Below are positions 9,001 through 21,900 of a stretch of DNA of 64,000 nucleotides, in pieces; positions within the stretch are counted from its first letter, which is position 1, and each line of letters begins with the position of its first letter. Origin of the DNA: Pagrus major (lineage: Eukaryota; Chordata; Actinopteri; Spariformes; Sparidae); NCBI RefSeq assembly GCF_040436345.1, contig NC_133223.1, positions 8,412,847 through 8,476,846 of the forward strand. Reading direction: 5' to 3'. Both the position numbers and the translations under genes were made by a program. Under the pieces are notes generated by a model that saw only the letters and a list, made by a program, of their open reading frames with translations, ran no database searches and was not told where the DNA came from.

Positions 9001-12000
9001 TTGTACAGATCTGACCACTGGAAATTACTCTGGGTAAGAAACCTGAAGGTACATTAAGTGTTTTCATCACAGCCTGTCTCTTTCTCTTGCTTTATCCCCT
9101 GTGACCGAGGATAGATTTGCTATGGTAATATGGCTAATGGTAAAAGTGTGTCATCCAACCTGGTTTTGAGTCTCTAGCTTTAACATATTTGTGACACCTC
9201 TTGGCTCAGGTGTGAAATTGTAAAAAGACACAGAAGTCAAACACAGAAGTTTGTGTGTGAAAGTGAGCATCACCCTCATCAGTGCCGTCTCCCCGCCTAA
9301 TGTCTGAGCGTTGACATAGGAGCCTGCCTCCAGCAGAATTGCAACAGTCGTCAAGAAATTCTGAGAGAAGACAGAAATAAAAAACAAATGAGTGAGGAAA
9401 CAGGACTGTATGATGTGCTGTGAACCACCAGTGTTTTATATTTCAAACCTGCATCAGTTGGTTTTTGGCCACTTTGGGGCAGTTCAACAAGCTGAAATAA
9501 CAACGCTGACATATTATCATGGTCTAAAGATTTTAATGCTAATGTGTTGGCTTATTTAAACATTAAGCAGAGAGTAGCAATATTCCAATATGTAGTCCAA
9601 TATTTACTTTGACTGAACTGTCTTCACCAACTCCTGAAGGAGGGGCTGAGATATCTATTCTAAGAGAAAACCATCATAGTAAATAGTCAAATATAAGGTT
9701 GAGAGGTGATGTTACCTTGTCAGCAGCATGCATCAGGGCTGTGGTGCCATTCTTCTGCCGACCATTCACCCTCACCCCCTTCTTTATCAGCAACCTGAGG
9801 ATGTCGTCCTGCCCCCCCGCTGCTGCGAGCATGCTCAGGGACATACCACTGGCATCCTGTGGACAGAGCAACAGATACAAGGCTACCATGTCACAGATGA
9901 AGAGTGGATGAATAAATGAATAAATAAAATGTATGTCAAAAAAATATTCTGATTTAAAAACCTTGCGTAGACCCACTGGGGAAAATGACCAAGTATTGTC
10001 CCATAGGCCTGATTTTATTTTCACTAACTATTAATTATGTCATAAAGAAAAGGCTACTCCCTAATTGTACATAGTTCTTTTATTTTGCTTCATTAATATT
10101 ATTATAAATACTTTTCTGTGTGTACTTTTGAAAATGACTATTCTAGAATCTATAACGTTGTGCGCAATTTCCAAAACCAACTTGAAATCTATGTGTTATG
10201 TGACATGTGAGGGTGAGAGAGTGCTGAGTTGGTTTATATCTTTTACAAGTGATATAGAAGCACAAATAACAATGCTGGTGTGAATATTTATGATGAGGTG
10301 GATCTATAAATGACTTGTGATATGACGTCAAGGCATCAGGCAGGGCACTTGCATGCTGTATACTTGGCTATCTTGTCACAGGAATGTCCATTCTAGGGCC
10401 TCTCAGACTGGGGAGTCAATCAGTAAACAATGAAAGTCATAATGCAGTAATTGCTCTTCACTGTTCAACAACCTCAGTTGTATTTCAGGAAGCATTTATG
10501 TTCACTTCAATCAGCCTCTGTAGATGATTTATGGATTCTGAAAAAATGCCTGTCCCCCTCAGCAGAAACTGATGTGTGATACAATGTGTAGGTGTTTCTG
10601 CAAAATCAGTGTCAAATAACTGTGCACAAAAAGCCAGGAGGTTTAAGCATGGTTGTTGCTGATATTAGTAATATTTCAAATAGTCACAGTCATTCTGAAA
10701 TTTGATTTGCAGGCTTGCAGGAGCCAGGAGCCAATCTCAGTTGACATTAGGAGGCCTGGTGCAACCTGGACAGGTTGTCAGTCTATCACAGGGTTGGCAG
10801 TTATACACAAACAACCATTCACACAATCTTCTCTACGGGCAATTTAGTACTTGGATTTCTACACTAGGAGCAAACCCACACAGGAACAGCGAGAACATGC
10901 AAAACCTGCCAGGTTAAGACCCAGAATCTTCTTACTGTGATGTAATGTCCAGTGTACCACCCCTAACTATGGATTTACAGGTGAAACACTTCAACTTTCT
11001 AACATTTGTATATTGCTGACATTCACATTGTGAATTCACAAAGCTTCAGCAAGGTTTGTATCTCACAAAGAAAAAAACTTAAGTTTAAAATGAAATGTAT
11101 TCGACTGATGAGAAAAAAACACAAAAAAGCCAACGACAATACATACGTTTAAAATTAAATGCATCATGGAACCCGTTCACATTATGAGCGGGTTATTTCA
11201 GAAAAAAACTTTGTATGGTAGTGAATGGAGAACATTGTAGACCTGCTCCTGTATATTAGCAGCTCACAGAACTGACCAACTCTCCTTTCACATAACTGCA
11301 GTTGTCAATATGAGTAGATATATTGTGATTTTCATCAGTTTTTAGTACCTTTTCTGTGCCGAGTTGGCGCCCATGTTGGTGTTGGTGACGTGTGTTGAGT
11401 GAGACGATGTAGTTCACTGAGCGCTTCAAGACAAAACTAGATGATATTCAACTCAAATCATGACAAACTGCGACCTTCTTGACTAAGAAAATTATCTTTC
11501 AAATTGACAAACATCATATGTATAGTTCATGGTACGAAAAAAGGTCCCATGGGCTGCAATTGAAGAGGTGAGACTTCGGCTCTCTATACACTTGCAAGCT
11601 CAAATCCACTAAACATAGTTTCCTTGGGCACTTTGTATTACAAAAAGTCTGAGTAATCAAATAAAACGCTGAAAATTTGACATTCAACCCAGTAAGAACA
11701 AATAAACCATATCTTTTCATAACAATACAATGTTTTTTAAGTCAAGAAGCATTTTATTGTACAAGCAGAAGTCATAAGATTCTTACAATACTTGATAAGA
11801 GGCATTAACTGAAGGCATCATAATTGCACCAGAATGAACAGTAACACGCACTGTGTGCTTATACAAGAGAAAGAAAGCTATCTACTTTACAGGAAAAAAA
11901 AAGTGTTGATTTGCAACAACAAACAGCAATGGTAGTGTCTAAATGATCATTTATCATTTGAGGACCTCAAACAGCTTCATTTTCCAAACACTGATGTATC

Positions 12001-15000
12001 TGAGGTGTAACCCTAACTACTGTATGTACTGCAATACAGATATACCCCTTTCACATGGAAGCAACAACACAGGAAAAATCTGTTTGCCATTGGTATGAAT
12101 GAGTTATGGGTTATCCGACCTGGTTCTGCATCAGTCAGGATTGTGTGTCTGAGACTAATTGCTTTGGTATGAAAGGGTGAACACTTGTTACTCTACACAG
12201 GTTCACTACAGCTGCTACTGACGATAACACAAAAGGTTTTGTCCATGACAAATAGCAGCAGTGCTATCTAGAACTCTTAACCATAACTTCTGCTCCTTTT
12301 GATCATAAAAAAATAGTGAAAATTACTGTAGACTGCATGTTAAATGCAAATGAATACATCTAGTGTCATCTAGTGAATATCCAGCATAAAATAAAAGCTG
12401 TGGTGACCAATTTTTAAAACTGAAATGGGACAACCCTGTTTAGCCAAGACTACGGTCACAAGTCTGGGACCAGCAGTCTGCTTGTGGTAAATGTAGGTTG
12501 AACATGTGTTCATAATCTGAAGGTTTGTATCTCACAGAGAAAAAAAACCTAAAGTTTCAAATTAAATGTAGTCAGCAGATGAAAAAAAACAAACACAAAA
12601 AACAAAAACAAAACACACGTTTAAAATTAAATGTTCACATCCTGTTTCTTTACGTTTTTACACACACTAACCGGATTAACGGTATACATGCGCTGAATAA
12701 AACGGAATATTGGGCAAAAACCTAGGTGTGTTCATCAGATTTTTCATGATCTGATAACTGCTTTCATCCCATAAAGCGTACCACATTATGCTGTTTACAT
12801 GACCACTTGAATAATCTGGTAACTCCATTAATCAGATAATGATCGGCTTATTAGTGAGCATTTAAATGGGCTCATTGTTTCAGAAATACTTTACGGCATT
12901 TTCAGTTAAAGGTGATAATACTAGGAACAATCTGAATTTACTTAAAGGGGTTCAATGTAACAATTAGTAGTAACGTGCAGATAGTAACATGACATGAAAA
13001 ATGAGACCTTCCCCATCTCCCTCAGGTGTCTATATAGGCCTGTGGGCGATTTGTTGAAGTATTTTTAATGCTGCTGGACTGCGGATTTCTTTGTGAAGGA
13101 AATGAAGTCTGCTAACATAATCCAATGTCAGGCTTCCACCACAACACAAAAGTTCTGCAAAGCCCCATTAACATCCACTGTCTAATGTCTGTTTTGCTCA
13201 TCCACTTATGTTTAAAAATGTAAAAGGGATGCCATTTTCAACTGGTTTTTGATGCTTGTCATGTATTAACTTTGTAACAACACTAAAAACAATAACCAGA
13301 ATTCTAACCTGTAGGTTTACAGGCCAAGGTAGTAAACAGCTCACAAAAGTTATCAGGAGCAGAATTACTATGCTTGTGTAAGCAATCAACATAATTAGGA
13401 CAAAGTGTAATAAAGCAAATTATCAAAATAATAAGGCAATCTGATCTTGGCAACTGGATATTAGTGTTAAAAATATCCAGATAATAAAAGCTTAAAACGA
13501 ATTAATACAAATGAGACCAATGCAGTGCATTTTACCTCAAATTAGAGTACATCAAATACGATCAAGTACTAAAATGTTCTACACAGTTGCAGTATAGTGA
13601 TACAAAAATACAACCAAACTTTTCGGCAGTTTGTTAAAAAAACAAATCTATAAATGAAGATAATGAACATTTATCGACAGAATCCTCAAAGAACAAAAAA
13701 TATGTTTTCAATATTTAAGTGCGAGGTATACAAACAGAGCTCCTAAATCTCTAACATCAGCAAGGAAGGTAAGTCATGACTGCTGCAGGCTATCAGGGGC
13801 CATCTACAATTTAGGCTACTGGCTAAAGCAAGAATATTATACAATTAGGCCAGGCATTTGGGAGTTATGTAAAGCAAATCAACACACATGTTGGAGGGAC
13901 TAGCTGCAAAGATTTGCTGGTAGTTTTTCAATTTCAGTTTTGATCATCAAAATTGATACAAATGCTACTGAAAACATTACAGGCAGAAATATAGATCCAA
14001 GTAAGTTTTGATGTGAATAAAAGTAAAAATCCCACTCAATGTACAGTCACTGATGCTACCTTTGCCCAGTGCAGGGTGGGGAATGCCCTGATCACGATGG
14101 CTGGGAAGTCCCAGACGATTCCGTGTTTACTTTCACCATTTTCACAAATATTGTGTTTGAAACTGTGAAAGTCTATTTGGGTGCCATGGTGGCTAATTGC
14201 CACGGACAATGACTTGTGGCAAATTGCAAATCCTGGCGAAATAATGTTCACATTTACTAAATGATCACACATCTAAAACTTGAATATTTCTAGAGATAAC
14301 CTGTGATGATCTGACAAATTGACAGTGTTATATATTTGACTATGTTACATACGTAGATGCAATCGAACCATATTCAACATTAAAACCTGCTTTTCCTGAC
14401 CCAAAGCTACTGTTCAAACACCCTTAGTTCAACCTCTTTTGTTTATATTCATGCAACAGCACACCAGGAGCTTGGTCTGATGGACTTGATCCAGAATATT
14501 TCAAAAGCTTCTTAAAAAGTGTGACTCAAAGAAAGGCAGGGCAGTTTGTCAACATCCATATGGCTAGTGAGACCAAGGTTCACTGACAGTACTACTCACA
14601 TCTGCTAAATTCTTGAGCCCCCACACACCTAAAATGTCACCGATCACTTATTCACTTATATTGACTATAGCAAGTCCTTTTTACAAATATTTACAGAGAT
14701 AGATAAACAGGACCATCCCACTCCGTGTTTGGATTAAGTGTCTCTGGTTCCTGTCCACCACTTTGTTTGGAGGCGACTGGATGCCCTCTTCTTTTCATTG
14801 ACTGAATTGAGTTATGTACATAGTATTTGACTTCCCTCCATGTTCTGCTGTTCAGGGCAGGTTCAGCAGCTAAACATGCATCACAATCCTTTTTGCCTGG
14901 CACTTTGACCAGTTTACAGAAGTCTCCAAATTGACGCCTCACAGCTGCCTGTTCCTCCTCACTCCATAACCTCTTGATTCTCTTTTGAGGCTTGGCAGCT

Positions 15001-18000
15001 GAAGTGACCGCAGGGGACATTGGCGAACTTTCCTGTACCACTCGTGTTCTGTCAGGAACGCTGGGTCTATGGATTGTTGGGACAACCTGTGCAGTTGCAG
15101 GGGTCCTCGGTGGGTTTGCGGGGTAAGCTGGTGTACTTGAATGGTTTAGAGGTGTGAATGAAGAAATGATAGGCCTACTTCTGTCATTTAGTGTTGAGAA
15201 TGCAGGGATCATTGGTGAGCTCGGAGTATTTAATGGTGTGAATGTAGACACCATTGAGGTGCTTGGTGCATTAAGCGCGCTAAAAGTAGGAATCATTTGT
15301 GAACTTGTAGTGTCCTGTGGTGCATACACAGAAGGGGGCAAAATACTTGTGGCATTCTGTGTGTAAGGAGGAGACATTGGCAGCATCATGTTCTCCGATG
15401 TGTATGCAGGAGGCATTAGTGCATTTGTAGTGTTGTGCGGAGTAAATGTAGGAACCACTTGTGTATCAGTAGCATTCAGTGGCGTGAAAGTAGAAATCAG
15501 TGGTTGACTGGTATGGACCATGTCTGTACTAGTGGAACACAAGGATGCATAAGTTGGAGTCAGCTCTGTGGGGAATGGTGTTGATGATTCACTCAGGTTG
15601 GTTTGTGGTGCCATTGTCATACAACAATTTGAAGTCAGGTGATCAGGATGCACTGTTGTCAGACTACAGACAACACTCTCATCTTCCAAAACTTTCTTAG
15701 CGGTTTGAACTCCAGATTTTGGACTGTCATCTGCAATCCCTTCAGACTTATTTCTCCTCCGTATCGTCTGTAGTGTGTTGTGAACATAGTTTTTGACATC
15801 TGTCCAAGATCTTCCACAAAGATCTGGTTCAGCAGCTATGCAAGCATTGCACTCCTTTTTGCCTGGAACCTTCATTGTTGTGATGAATTCACACAAGTAA
15901 CGCTTCACTGCAGCCTGCTCCCTCTCACTCCAAGGTCTTCTCTTCAAAGCCGACTTCTGTGCAGTTCCTAAGAAGATAAAAGTGTATTAAATCATCATTT
16001 TATTGTAGAAACACAATGTTGAATACAATTAGATTGCAATACTCTCTCAATTTAAAATCATACAAAATTTAAACTGTTGGGTTTGACAGTTCATTTTTGA
16101 CCACGGAAAAAGCAAAATTTTGTTTTGTCAGCTGCTATTTGCGAGATAGTTTGATATTGTCAAAAAATCCTGAACAAACAACTAAGTGTACCTAGAGTGG
16201 GGACTGTTTGGCAACTGCCGTTTCAAAGATCAACAATAAACTGTCAAGTCCTAAAAAGGTTTGGATAATGGGAAGTTTAAACATCTATTGATCCATGTCA
16301 ATGAGAAAACTGCATCTGCTGATTAACAAGTAATTAAGTGTACCTGAGTGGAGATTGTTAAGTAAAATTTTAACTATACTTCGAGAGCACAGGCTATTTG
16401 CCATCCAACCGTTGTAATCAAAGAACACATTAATGCAAAAGGATCCATAGGAGCAAAAGGTAATCACCGTCTCTAGCAGTACTGGGTGGACTTGATGGCA
16501 GTGTTCGATCTATCTTGAGAAGTTGTTTGCTCACTTCCTCCAGCTGTGATGCATTTTTTGAGAGCCTATAACACTCCTGGCTGCTCCTTCCGACCAGTTT
16601 GGCCACTTGATCCAATTCGTGTTCACTGAGGCTCATTATCTGCCAGCAGCTGGCAATTTGCTCTCTTAATGATGAAGACAGAAGTGCTTCTGGGTTTTTA
16701 ACTCCACATTCCATTGCGGCCCGTCGGAAACAGTCCAATCCTCTAATGAAGGATGGGCCTTCAGTCCTTGCAAACAGGTATGGGTTAGTTTTGGACACAC
16801 CTGCTTGTTCTCGATTTTCAATGAGTAAATCAACTGACAAAACCATCCTTTCTGTTAGCAGAACCAGCATGTTCCTTCCATACTGACCTTCAAGTTCCAA
16901 CCTGGTGAAATTGGCACCAAGGTCCAGCTCCAATTTAGTGCTTTTCCTTATTTGATCTGCAGAGGGCACAAATGTTCCCCGACTCTTTTTGTGAGTATAG
17001 GTTTGCAAGAGCAATCTACCAATATTTCCTACCCTTCCTCTGTTAAACAGACACACATCTGCTAGAGTGGCCTCGCTGAGCTTTTTCCATGTTGACAGAT
17101 TAGGACTTTCTTTCAGCTCTTTCCTCGCTTCATCTTCTTCCCTTGTGATAAACCTATGGAGTTTTATCAAATCTTCCGTCACAGTTGATTTGTCTACTTC
17201 CACTTTTTTGACCTCTTGCTTGAGAGATAATGCAAGAGCTTTGCGTGAAAAACACTCACTCCATTTTGTATCAAGAAGCTGTATGAACTTTTTCACTTCA
17301 CTTTCAGTTTCACTGTCCTCCGTCATACGACTTTCCCCGAAAGCTATTTCTGCAGCTCGTTTCAAAGAGTAGCCGATCTTCGAGACAAGGGAAACGGTTT
17401 TAAATTTACTGGAACTGGGATCAAATCCACTCACTTTTTTGGCCCCTTCAACAGCTAATTCAAATCTGGATGGTAGACATACTTCATGCAAATACGTAAC
17501 GCTCTTGTCAAGCTCATGTACAGCAAGCACAAATCTACCCAGTTCCCTCATCTTTTGTGCAATATACGCAAACTGAGACTTATCATGGTCATACTTAGCA
17601 GACAAGGCATTGCCATATTTACAAATAAGTGGGTCGTTTCTGATATGCCTTGAAATGTCATCTTGATGCATGATGTGTATGATTTCCTCGCAGCGTTCAG
17701 TTAGGAACTCTGACATTGGAAGCAGCCGAGAGGCGGCACTGTGGACTCCGCTTCTTTTTGTCCTTTCAGAGGATTTCTGATCTCCCTTTCTGGCCTTACA
17801 TGACCTCTCATGTCTCCATAAATCAGTTTTGCGATAAAAAGCAAAGCAGTGCTGACAAGGCAGGAAGTCACGTACTGATATGCTGGGATTTTTCACCTGC
17901 TTCTTTGTGACAATTTCCCCCTCACCACTTTTGAGAACTTTGAAATTATGTTCATAGTCTCCTTTATTTCGGATTTGGTCAAGCAAAGTCTGTCTGACTT

Positions 18001-18944
18001 TGGAACCTTTGGGAAAGTGTATTGCATGGGCAACATCTGTTTCTTCTGCATGTTTCCTCTCCAAATGCTTTGCAAGTTGGGTAAAAGCCATTTTGCAATA
18101 TAAACAGAAGTGCTTTTTGCATGACTCTTTTTTCTCATCATCCACTGGGGTTGGTTTTGTTTCAAGCACTTTTTTGCAGGTCCTTAAACTGGATCGCGTT
18201 GGTTGTTTCCTCTCCACATTTTTCCTGCGGCGCCTTGATCGTCTTTTAGCAATCCCCTTTGTTTCTGACTTTAACAGAACTTGTTCTGTACTATCTGACT
18301 GACCTGCCACAACATCCTCTGCCTCATCACCTGACTCATTTGCTTTCTCGGGGGAACTCTGTTCGTTAACTACGCCATTTTTTTCTGTTTTGTCACTGTC
18401 CCTTGTCAGCATCCCTTCTGCATTTCTGGCTGGATTTGAATTATCAAAGTTCAAACTCATTTTACTTGATAAACCACCTTTTGTGTTGTCTGAGATCTTG
18501 TCTTCTTGTGCTTGCTTCTGGTCTTCCTCTCCTTGACTTTCCTGCATGGTAGCTGAATCACAAGCAGCATAATCGGATTCAGTTATATCCCTCCCACATG
18601 TTTGGATCTTTTCATGTTCCTTCACTGTCACTTGCTCAGTGTTTGTACTGGCAAGGCAGCTTGGAATTTTTTCACCATCGTTTGGGCCATCCAAATCTTG
18701 TGGGATAAGCTCATTTAGTGTTGGAGTACCCTCTTCATTTTGTGCACTGTCAAGGTTAGAGGTCAACTTAAGAGCATCACTTGAACTCCTCTCTTCAATC
18801 AAGCTCCTCTCTCCTTCAAATGACTTCGTCTCACCAATAGTACAAGCCTGCAAAAGAACAAGTATATGTAAGACTCATCGCCAAATCAGACCTCATGAAT
18901 ATTTTGATTGGTGAACTTATAAGACAGATCCATAAGGACATAAA

Positions 18945-18990
<46 letters not shown>

Positions 18991-21900
18991 TGCGTGTGGT
19001 GGGGGTGGTTTGACTTTTGGTTGTTAAGCGGTGGTGATAAGCTATGCTTTTTTGCTATTGCCTTTTCAAAATCCTGTGCACATTTTTCAGTTGCTGTTTA
19101 CACATCAGCACCTTGGTAATGCCCCATAAAGAGTCAGGCTCATTCAAACAGAAGTCAACGTGATGGCCACACATCACCTTTTAGCCCAACATCAGTATCA
19201 GAAGACCCCTGACAACTCTCGAATCTCCAGTACAAAAACCACATGTGACCCATTCAGGAATAGTTAATGGCTTTATTGGATCAAGCAGCGTTTTGACATT
19301 GTAATTGTCTAACCAAGTATATGTAGTCATGGGGTGTTGGATGAAATGCTACATGGAGAGAACATAATATGCACTGACACTAGACCTACATTCATGGCTT
19401 GCAATCAAAACAAATAATTATATTACTTTTGATGGCATATACAAAATATTTCAACTAACCGTTGCTGTGTTTTTACAGTAAAATCTATGAAAGTGGTGAT
19501 TCAACACAACAGTCTTCAATGTGGCTTAAAAAGAAAAGAGAAAAAAATAAAAATAAAATAATAAACCATTACAGATTCCAGGACCAGGCCAAGTACAAAT
19601 GGCAAAACATGGGAACATTTTCATTGTGTCTGGCCATTCACAACATAAAGTTTTTCTTTTAGATCTATGCTTCGAAACTTTTGATGGTAAGATAAAAGCA
19701 AAAATAAATCCTGAATACATGAAAAGTTACTGACGATGGGGGGTGCACATGTTCTATGATCATGATTATGATACATGTTCTGAAAGCACAGTATGTACCT
19801 GCTTCAAAGGGTTCATCTTGTCCTGTTACTTCATGTGTTCAGTATCTTCTTCCATTGGCTTGTTCTCTGCAAGGTAAAATGACACCACAGTCTCTAATGT
19901 GCAATAATTATAATGAATATACCATATGATGAATTCATATTAGATCCAAGTTACCAACCACACAGTTACACCTAGATTAACAACTTAAATAAACCATTTA
20001 TTGTTTTATATAATAACCTAGGTTAACTTAAGCTGCTAAGAGCAATGAGTAAACAGAGTGAAGAACATCTTAAGTCATCCAGAGAGAAGCAGTAAGATCT
20101 CATAACAGAGCTCTGGTGGAAATTTTCATTAGCTTTTTGCAGATTCTGCCCACAAACAACAATACAGTTCACGTTAAAATTAAGCTGCATGGCCCTTTAA
20201 TACTCAATACATTATTGGTATAATTTGATACTAAAAACTTGTAATTACAACAAAGTTGTTCCTTCTTCATAAAATACAAAGTCTTAAGCAAACTAAATGA
20301 CTACATCACAAAATATTTACAACATTACATCACTGTCGCTTAACAAATATCATATTTTTGAGGTCACACTCTTACCTTTTTGTAGAAGCAATGGTGCTTT
20401 GGAGTTGTATAAACATCTTGAGGCGTTGAATTATTAGTAGACATGAAGTATTTAGATGTAGATCTTGACGAAACAGATTCTTTGGTGCACAGTTCTATAC
20501 TACATTTTATCATCTGTAAGTGTAGTATGGGTTAATTATTAAGATGCTTTGAATGCGACGGAATGAAGTCTTCTCTGCCTACATCATGTAGCCCTTGTGA
20601 GCCATTTCCCTCATGTTTACGGTTCAGTATTTTCCATTCCTGCTGATACTGTTGCATAACTTGCACATTTACTCAAGGGTTTTCTAAGATATTTCAAAGT
20701 GCTTCCAAATTTGATCCAGTCAATTCACAAACAGATGATTGTATCCTGACACAGAAAATTTCTCTACAAGCATCTGTTGTCTCATAATAATTACCACCTT
20801 GACATCATTGTAAGAAGTCTGAAGATTGTGCTGAAAACTGTTAAAATACTTCTTGCGGAGACATTCCACATAGGACAAAAGCAAGGATGACCATTGTAAA
20901 ATGGCCTTTAAAATATTTCCAACCACTTCCACAATTGGAAGGACTATTTTTAACCTAATGTCAGTTCATGTTTAGGTAATGCAGAGGACCTTGCTGGGCA
21001 ACTATTCAGTGCCGGTGTAACAAACAGAACTGTGTGACACTGGTTATCCAAAGAAATTCACATTTTTCCCATACTGGACTGCACAAACACACCCACACAT
21101 ACACACTGGGGACGACCAAGGTGCGAGCTGTTAAATATGTGAAATGTGTTTTGGAATTGAAAGCTTAGGAAGTCTTGATATATATGTAAAAAAAAAAAAA
21201 AAAGATAAAATAAATAATAATAAAATAAGGCACAAGATATTCAGCAGATAGAAATTAGATGGTTTGGAAGTATGGCTTTATAAAATGTACTTAAAAAACA
21301 ATGTTTGGAAGGGGATTGAACATACCTCCTGGTCCAGATTGTAGTCCTCTTTGGAATTAAGTGCCAATTTTACAGCCATGTAATTTCCATTTTTCACAGC
21401 ATCCCGCAACTCACCTAACAGGAACAAAGTGAAGCGAAATTAAATTTAAAGAATGTATCAATTATAGATTTCACAACCAAACATTCATGAAAAAAATAAA
21501 AAAATAGGGCCTTCTAGTGGTACAACAATTCTCAAGTGCAGAAACTGTATGCATTGTATGCTTTTACTGACAACCTAGCTCTGATAAAGCTACTAGCATA
21601 GTAACATATTAGCAGCAATGGTGTGATTACCTTACTGTTAAAAGGCACAGTACAATAAAGTATATTTTAGAAAATGTTATCATGTGTCCCTGTGTTAATT
21701 GTGCTGCACTTAAGGATGAATACATATGTACATTTATCAAACCAAATAGGATTTGCACCCACAGCACCCATCAAATAAAATGGCATTTGACTGTAAGCTT
21801 GTGGCTCACTGTAGCTAGCAAAGCAATATCATGGATCAGACCTGTGTGTTTAGATGTCGTTAATAACATTTTAGTAAGAATGTGATTGTGCTGCAATTAG

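Follow-up and report, generated by a model that had tools for sequence, protein, structure and literature searches.

A single-copy, probably domesticated CryptonV-like recombinase unit on the sense strand of an mphosph8 intron in Pagrus major

Several host genes have been traced to the recombinases of Crypton elements, and according to passages of PMC3212892 these DUF3504 genes include KCTD1, KIAA1958, ZMYM2-4, QRICH1 and WOC, whose catalytic residues have been lost. In the same passages, those vertebrate genes known to derive from Cryptons all fall into the DUF3504 group (PMC3212892). A Crypton recombinase also lies within an intron of ATF7IP, where alternative splicing has been predicted, and the consulted portions of PMC3212892 and PMC9004415 describe it as a CryptonA relic that is intact only in some vertebrates. 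ATF7IP, when methylated, is bound by MPP8 (PMC6172828, in part). Some CryptonV families are described as inserting specifically in microsatellites (PMC8869645, in part, citing Kapitonov and Jurka 2012).

The stretch of DNA analyzed here, a window of 64,000 nucleotides from Pagrus major, carries a two-exon unit within the intron that separates exons 7 and 8 of mphosph8 (9857..21325, minus strand). Judged from its sequence, the unit is real and present as a single copy, lies on the sense strand of mphosph8 and derives from a CryptonV-like recombinase whose catalytic part is damaged; its domestication is probable. The nearest precedent, by analogy, is the ATF7IP-intron Crypton, since in both cases a recombinase frame sits inside an intron and the host gene encodes a silencing protein linked to SETDB1; the window gene differs in its lineage and in having zinc fingers and a W-S-E tail. 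The DUF3504 genes are likewise host genes that came from recombinases and are without the catalytic residues, but the DUF3504 profile (PF12012), which has 30 matches genome-wide, overlaps neither the window nor any of the listed places of its family. CryptonV is the closest described kind, a label that rests on the target site as given in CryptonV descriptions. The likeness lies in a tyrosine recombinase and in the (TG)n found at both ends of two relatives in this genome, to be set beside the microsatellite insertion described for some CryptonV families, whereas the window gene departs from CryptonV in being single-copy and catalytically damaged. No recombinase gene in mphosph8 was found described in the literature searched, by titles and the openings of abstracts. 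The reading preferred here, to which we give a probability of roughly 0.55, is that a CryptonV-like recombinase element lost catalysis and that its frame was retained by the host as a DNA-binding protein.

The host gene was recognized as that of MPP8 from matches to PDB entries for M-phase phosphoprotein 8. The peptide of the ankyrin-part exons matches 8qfb_B (E 1.6e-101) in an alignment that runs unbroken over the join of exons 7 and 8, and the peptide of the chromodomain exon matches 3qo2_A (E 3.5e-27). Together with the frames, these exon matches define the intron. A first-pass annotation of this DNA had ended exon 7 at 21326 and started exon 8 at 9856, each in phase 0, and a re-reading of the frames agreed. 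Its claim of same-strand nesting in the exon 7-8 intron was also borne out, as both exons of the nested unit, exons A and B, lie on the minus strand like mphosph8 itself.

Exon A (16468..18847, minus strand) comprises 793 open codons and encodes an acidic N-terminal part, two zinc fingers and a recombinase-derived core. Exon B (14691..15967, minus strand; 425 codons, with the stop at 14691) encodes two W-S-E domains separated by a P-, S- and T-rich linker. Joined in phase 1, the two exons give 1218 codons uninterrupted up to the terminal stop. When the intron was shuffled 200 times, no open frame exceeded 179 codons, compared to 793 in exon A. Exon A is bounded by a phase-0 acceptor and a weak phase-1 donor that matches 5 of 9 consensus bases. 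Relatives at other places in the genome have exons with the phases of A and B, and this shared exon plan confirms the A-B join that had been inferred in the first-pass annotation.

The first methionine within exon A is residue 101, so translation probably enters via an upstream exon. One candidate (20376..20513, minus strand) is a stretch of 46 open codons, with AG before it and ATGs at 20513 and 20444, that could be a first or an internal exon; its donor is AAG/GTAAGA and it would be in phase 0 at the join. An alternative candidate first exon (19799..19866, minus strand), with an ATG at 19816 (MNPLKQ) and the donor CAG/GTACAT, would also join in phase 0. Reading from ATG 19816 (MNPLKQ/GTACAT) and adding the 1218 codons gives the 1224 codons of the first-pass annotation. 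As first exons the two are equally possible, and neither shares a peptide with the relatives compared. What stands of the complete spliced gene of about 1224 codons that had been proposed is thus its frames, junction and stop, not a start of its own: the 5' exons are guesses, none resembling relatives.

It is in this setting that the best placed of the alternatives has to be weighed, namely that the unit is an alternative 3' end of mphosph8, with exon 7 spliced to 18847, so that one protein would carry the MPP8 chromodomain together with the zinc-finger, dead-recombinase and W-S-E parts. Exon 7 would join exon A in frame, which makes an MPP8 fusion isoform an alternative to a separate nested gene, and which leaves the earlier statement that host splicing must skip the nested gene no more than a possibility. 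Such a fusion is also favored by the pyrimidine-rich acceptor of exon A, by the upstream exon that its late first methionine makes probable, and by the precedent of the ATF7IP-intron Crypton, with its predicted alternative splicing (PMC3212892, in part). That said, a phase match would occur by chance about 1 time in 3, phase 0 is inherited from the family, and candidate private first exons are present, so that we consider the fusion unlikely. Host-transposase fusions, in which an intronic transposase is captured by splicing, were reportedly treated by Cosby in 2021; that mode of capture is the likeness, and in mphosph8 the fusion is only a candidate.

There is a good case, resting on profile comparison, for placing the family of the nested protein in the tyrosine recombinase superfamily. 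A profile of 12 relatives, from which the window protein was excluded, was compared with 42 bacterial and phage tyrosine recombinases using hhalign, and it aligned with XerD-type recombinases over the catalytic domain with a score of 43.4 and Prob 60.4 (E 8.4e-5, for one comparison). Reversal of the profile gave a score of 19.7, and 40 column shuffles gave at most 17.8. In the longer alignment FNRRREGE falls opposite the box I motif, GKRGRK opposite the XerD hairpin, STKLRKHxAT opposite LRHSFAT and LGHDIRVHRxxYR opposite the LGH...Y stretch. Searches of Pfam and NCBIfam (E up to 1) and of PDB sequences (E up to 10) produced no match to a recombinase, and the PHROGs matches of the family carry no description, with no family among them named as a recombinase. 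An AlphaFold model of the window core from its single sequence (pLDDT 38) was unusable. The view that the zinc fingers, recombinase core and W-S-E tail are foreign to MPP8 is supported, for the core by this alignment of the family profile to recombinases.

Relatives of the unit are numerous in the same 786-Mb genome, where exon A has at least 61 and exon B at least 43 further matching pieces (E up to 1); none were found in the viral contigs or the bacterial and archaeal genomes searched. Several groups of copies that are more than 99% identical lie on different chromosomes (L033/L034, L036/L037/L038, L044/L045/L046, L040/L043, L041/L042 and L059/L060). In relatives with a full frame the recombinase exon runs from a phase-0 acceptor to a phase-1 donor, while the W-S-E domain has a short exon to itself, and the window unit has the same plan plus a second W-S-E copy after its linker. 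As DNA the window unit is single-copy: exon B has 1 match, and exon A matches itself and one 174-base piece at 70%. The nearest relative of the window protein shows 40-41% identity. In a tree the protein joins L033/L034 with support of 100/100, on an end branch of 1.38 compared to 0.6 for the L033/L034 stem, a length that weighs against the preferred reading.

Other diverged relatives are scattered over the genome. L050 and L054 (C16:11539025-11547913) are adjacent, have open frames and have lost the box I Arg, and on these sequence features it is possible that they are further domesticated genes; a DUF3504 match at C16:11524557-11525384 lies about 14 kb away. A fragmented, diverged relative at C11:34903111-34906555, the tail of which is covered by L003, is open over 566, 354 and 360 codons in its pieces, and its W-S-E domain is followed by a Q-rich stretch. 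The catalytic end of a relative at C5:19388604-19393591 (L048, L028, L027) is damaged, and behind it come two successive W-S-E exons, which resemble the doubled domain of the window gene.

The ends of the relatives are the basis of the CryptonV label. Two relatives, one on C14 (about 24.2 kb) and one on C8 (about 20.7 kb), are bounded on either side by (TG)n and have unrelated flanks, and they seem, from these ends, to be large recombinase elements that target TG microsatellites. Two subfamilies terminate in AGTATG(TG)n. Among 29 tail loci, an array of at least 7 units directly follows AGTA in 7 and an interrupted array is found in an eighth, while 20 have no array in the retrieved flank. The L033/L034 copies start with a LINE-like frame rather than with (TG)n. 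The mphosph8 intron 7-8 contains no visible (TG)n pair or relative-like element ends. A single TG/CA array in it reaches 4 units or more, the (TG)14 array (18945..18972, plus strand) about 100 bases upstream of exon A, which has no proven relation to an old insertion end. The C14 and C8 copies, at C14:2409203-2433402 (L020/L045/L066/L068/L070) and C8:24100098-24120799 (L021/L046/L067/L069), match each other over most of their length.

The core of the window protein (residues 366-793; 16469..17752, minus strand), delimited by family alignment and profile comparison, is without the full R-K-H-R-H-Y set, whose hairpin Lys, GH His, box I and box II Arg and Tyr we take to be the catalytic residues. 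The hairpin Lys is replaced by Gln (655) and the GH His is gone with a 3-residue deletion; the box I Arg and box II Arg are kept, as is the Tyr at a spacing 3 shorter. The GHDIRVHR motif is kept in 12 of the 15 relatives whose frame reaches the end. The best reading of these lost motifs is that the window recombinase is catalytically dead. Alignment with relatives also locates zinc finger 1 (C248 C251 H261 H266; 18050..18106, minus strand) and zinc finger 2 (C331 C334 H346 C350; 17798..17857, minus strand). Invariant columns of the family were defined by six relatives, which therefore provide no control. Over these columns the zinc fingers of the window protein keep 22 of 26 residues, ligands included, and the core-binding part keeps 12 of 19; the catalytic part keeps 37 of 62, with 25 changed. 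With key catalytic residues lost and zinc-finger residues kept, the host may have kept the unit as a DNA-binding protein. The contrast between zinc fingers and catalytic part is not special to the window gene: L048, L050 and L054, which lie outside the column definition, are much alike in pattern, with 20-21 of 26 zinc-finger and 28-38 of 67 catalytic residues kept over a slightly different column set.

These losses might also be expected of a decaying mobile-element copy whose frames are open by chance or through recent loss of activity, and a repeated family in which several copies are more than 99% identical fits such an origin. Yet a near-identical source copy was not found in the same genome, and conserved catalytic residues have decayed much while no stop has appeared. 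In a simulation of neutral drift, stop-free runs numbered 16 of 300 at 2% divergence, 3 of 300 at 3% and 0 of 300 at 5%. The catalytic part has diverged well beyond these levels. A stop-free frame in which 25 of 62 family-invariant residues of the catalytic domain have changed is one that outlasted the loss of catalysis, and simple decay is, in our estimation, slightly less likely than the MPP8 fusion. Two histories would account for these comparisons: selection maintained the frame once catalysis had gone, or catalysis was lost ahead of an unseen stage of constraint. That the element is still mobile and has an unusual active site is very improbable: a box I Arg, a box II Arg and a Tyr remain, but the hairpin Lys and the GH do not, the unit is single-copy, and the intron is without a (TG)n pair or relative-like element ends.

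The two W-S-E domains of exon B, recognized by sequence comparison (copy 1, 15753..15938; copy 2, 14787..14972; both minus strand), are identical at 36 of 62 residues. Between them dN is 0.277 and dS 1.716 by NG86, and 0.232 and 1.422 by LWL85; dS above 1 is near saturation, and the constraint seen may predate the host copy. A model of the W-S-E domain (pLDDT 68) had 22 Foldseek matches, none at E of 0.001 or below and the best at 2.9. Homeodomains make up 10 of the 22, which is a hint at most.

Under the preferred reading, domestication as a DNA-binding protein, a CryptonV-like tyrosine-recombinase element would long ago have inserted into the mphosph8 intron in sense orientation, the recombinase would have lost catalysis, and the host would have kept the reading frame. 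The zinc fingers and W-S-E domains would bind DNA, with the dead core serving as a scaffold or DNA clamp, and the protein could begin with a private first exon (20513-20376 or 19866-19799) or form the terminal part of an MPP8 isoform. Retention by the host, DNA binding and a silencing or regulatory role are what we infer for it. A more specific proposal, which we hold to be quite doubtful, is a fish MPP8 isoform that combines the H3K9me3-reading chromodomain with the dead CryptonV-like recombinase, the zinc fingers and W-S-E domains recognizing element DNA and steering silencing to relatives. If true, the SETDB1 silencing axis would have captured two recombinases, this one and the ATF7IP Crypton.

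About 37 kb before the window, near mphosph8, there is a DUF3504 match at C9:8373434-8375496, which by synteny is probably zmym2, as we assume. Two recombinase-derived genes of different lineages would then lie close together. The window gene would represent a domestication from a recombinase lineage other than DUF3504, and since mobile relatives are still present in the same genome, they allow a direct comparison of the dead protein with apparently live ones. The gene in which the unit sits encodes a transposon-silencing protein, and a host exon is in frame with the unit; the mphosph8 case would repeat, in MPP8, the situation described for ATF7IP, its binding partner when methylated.
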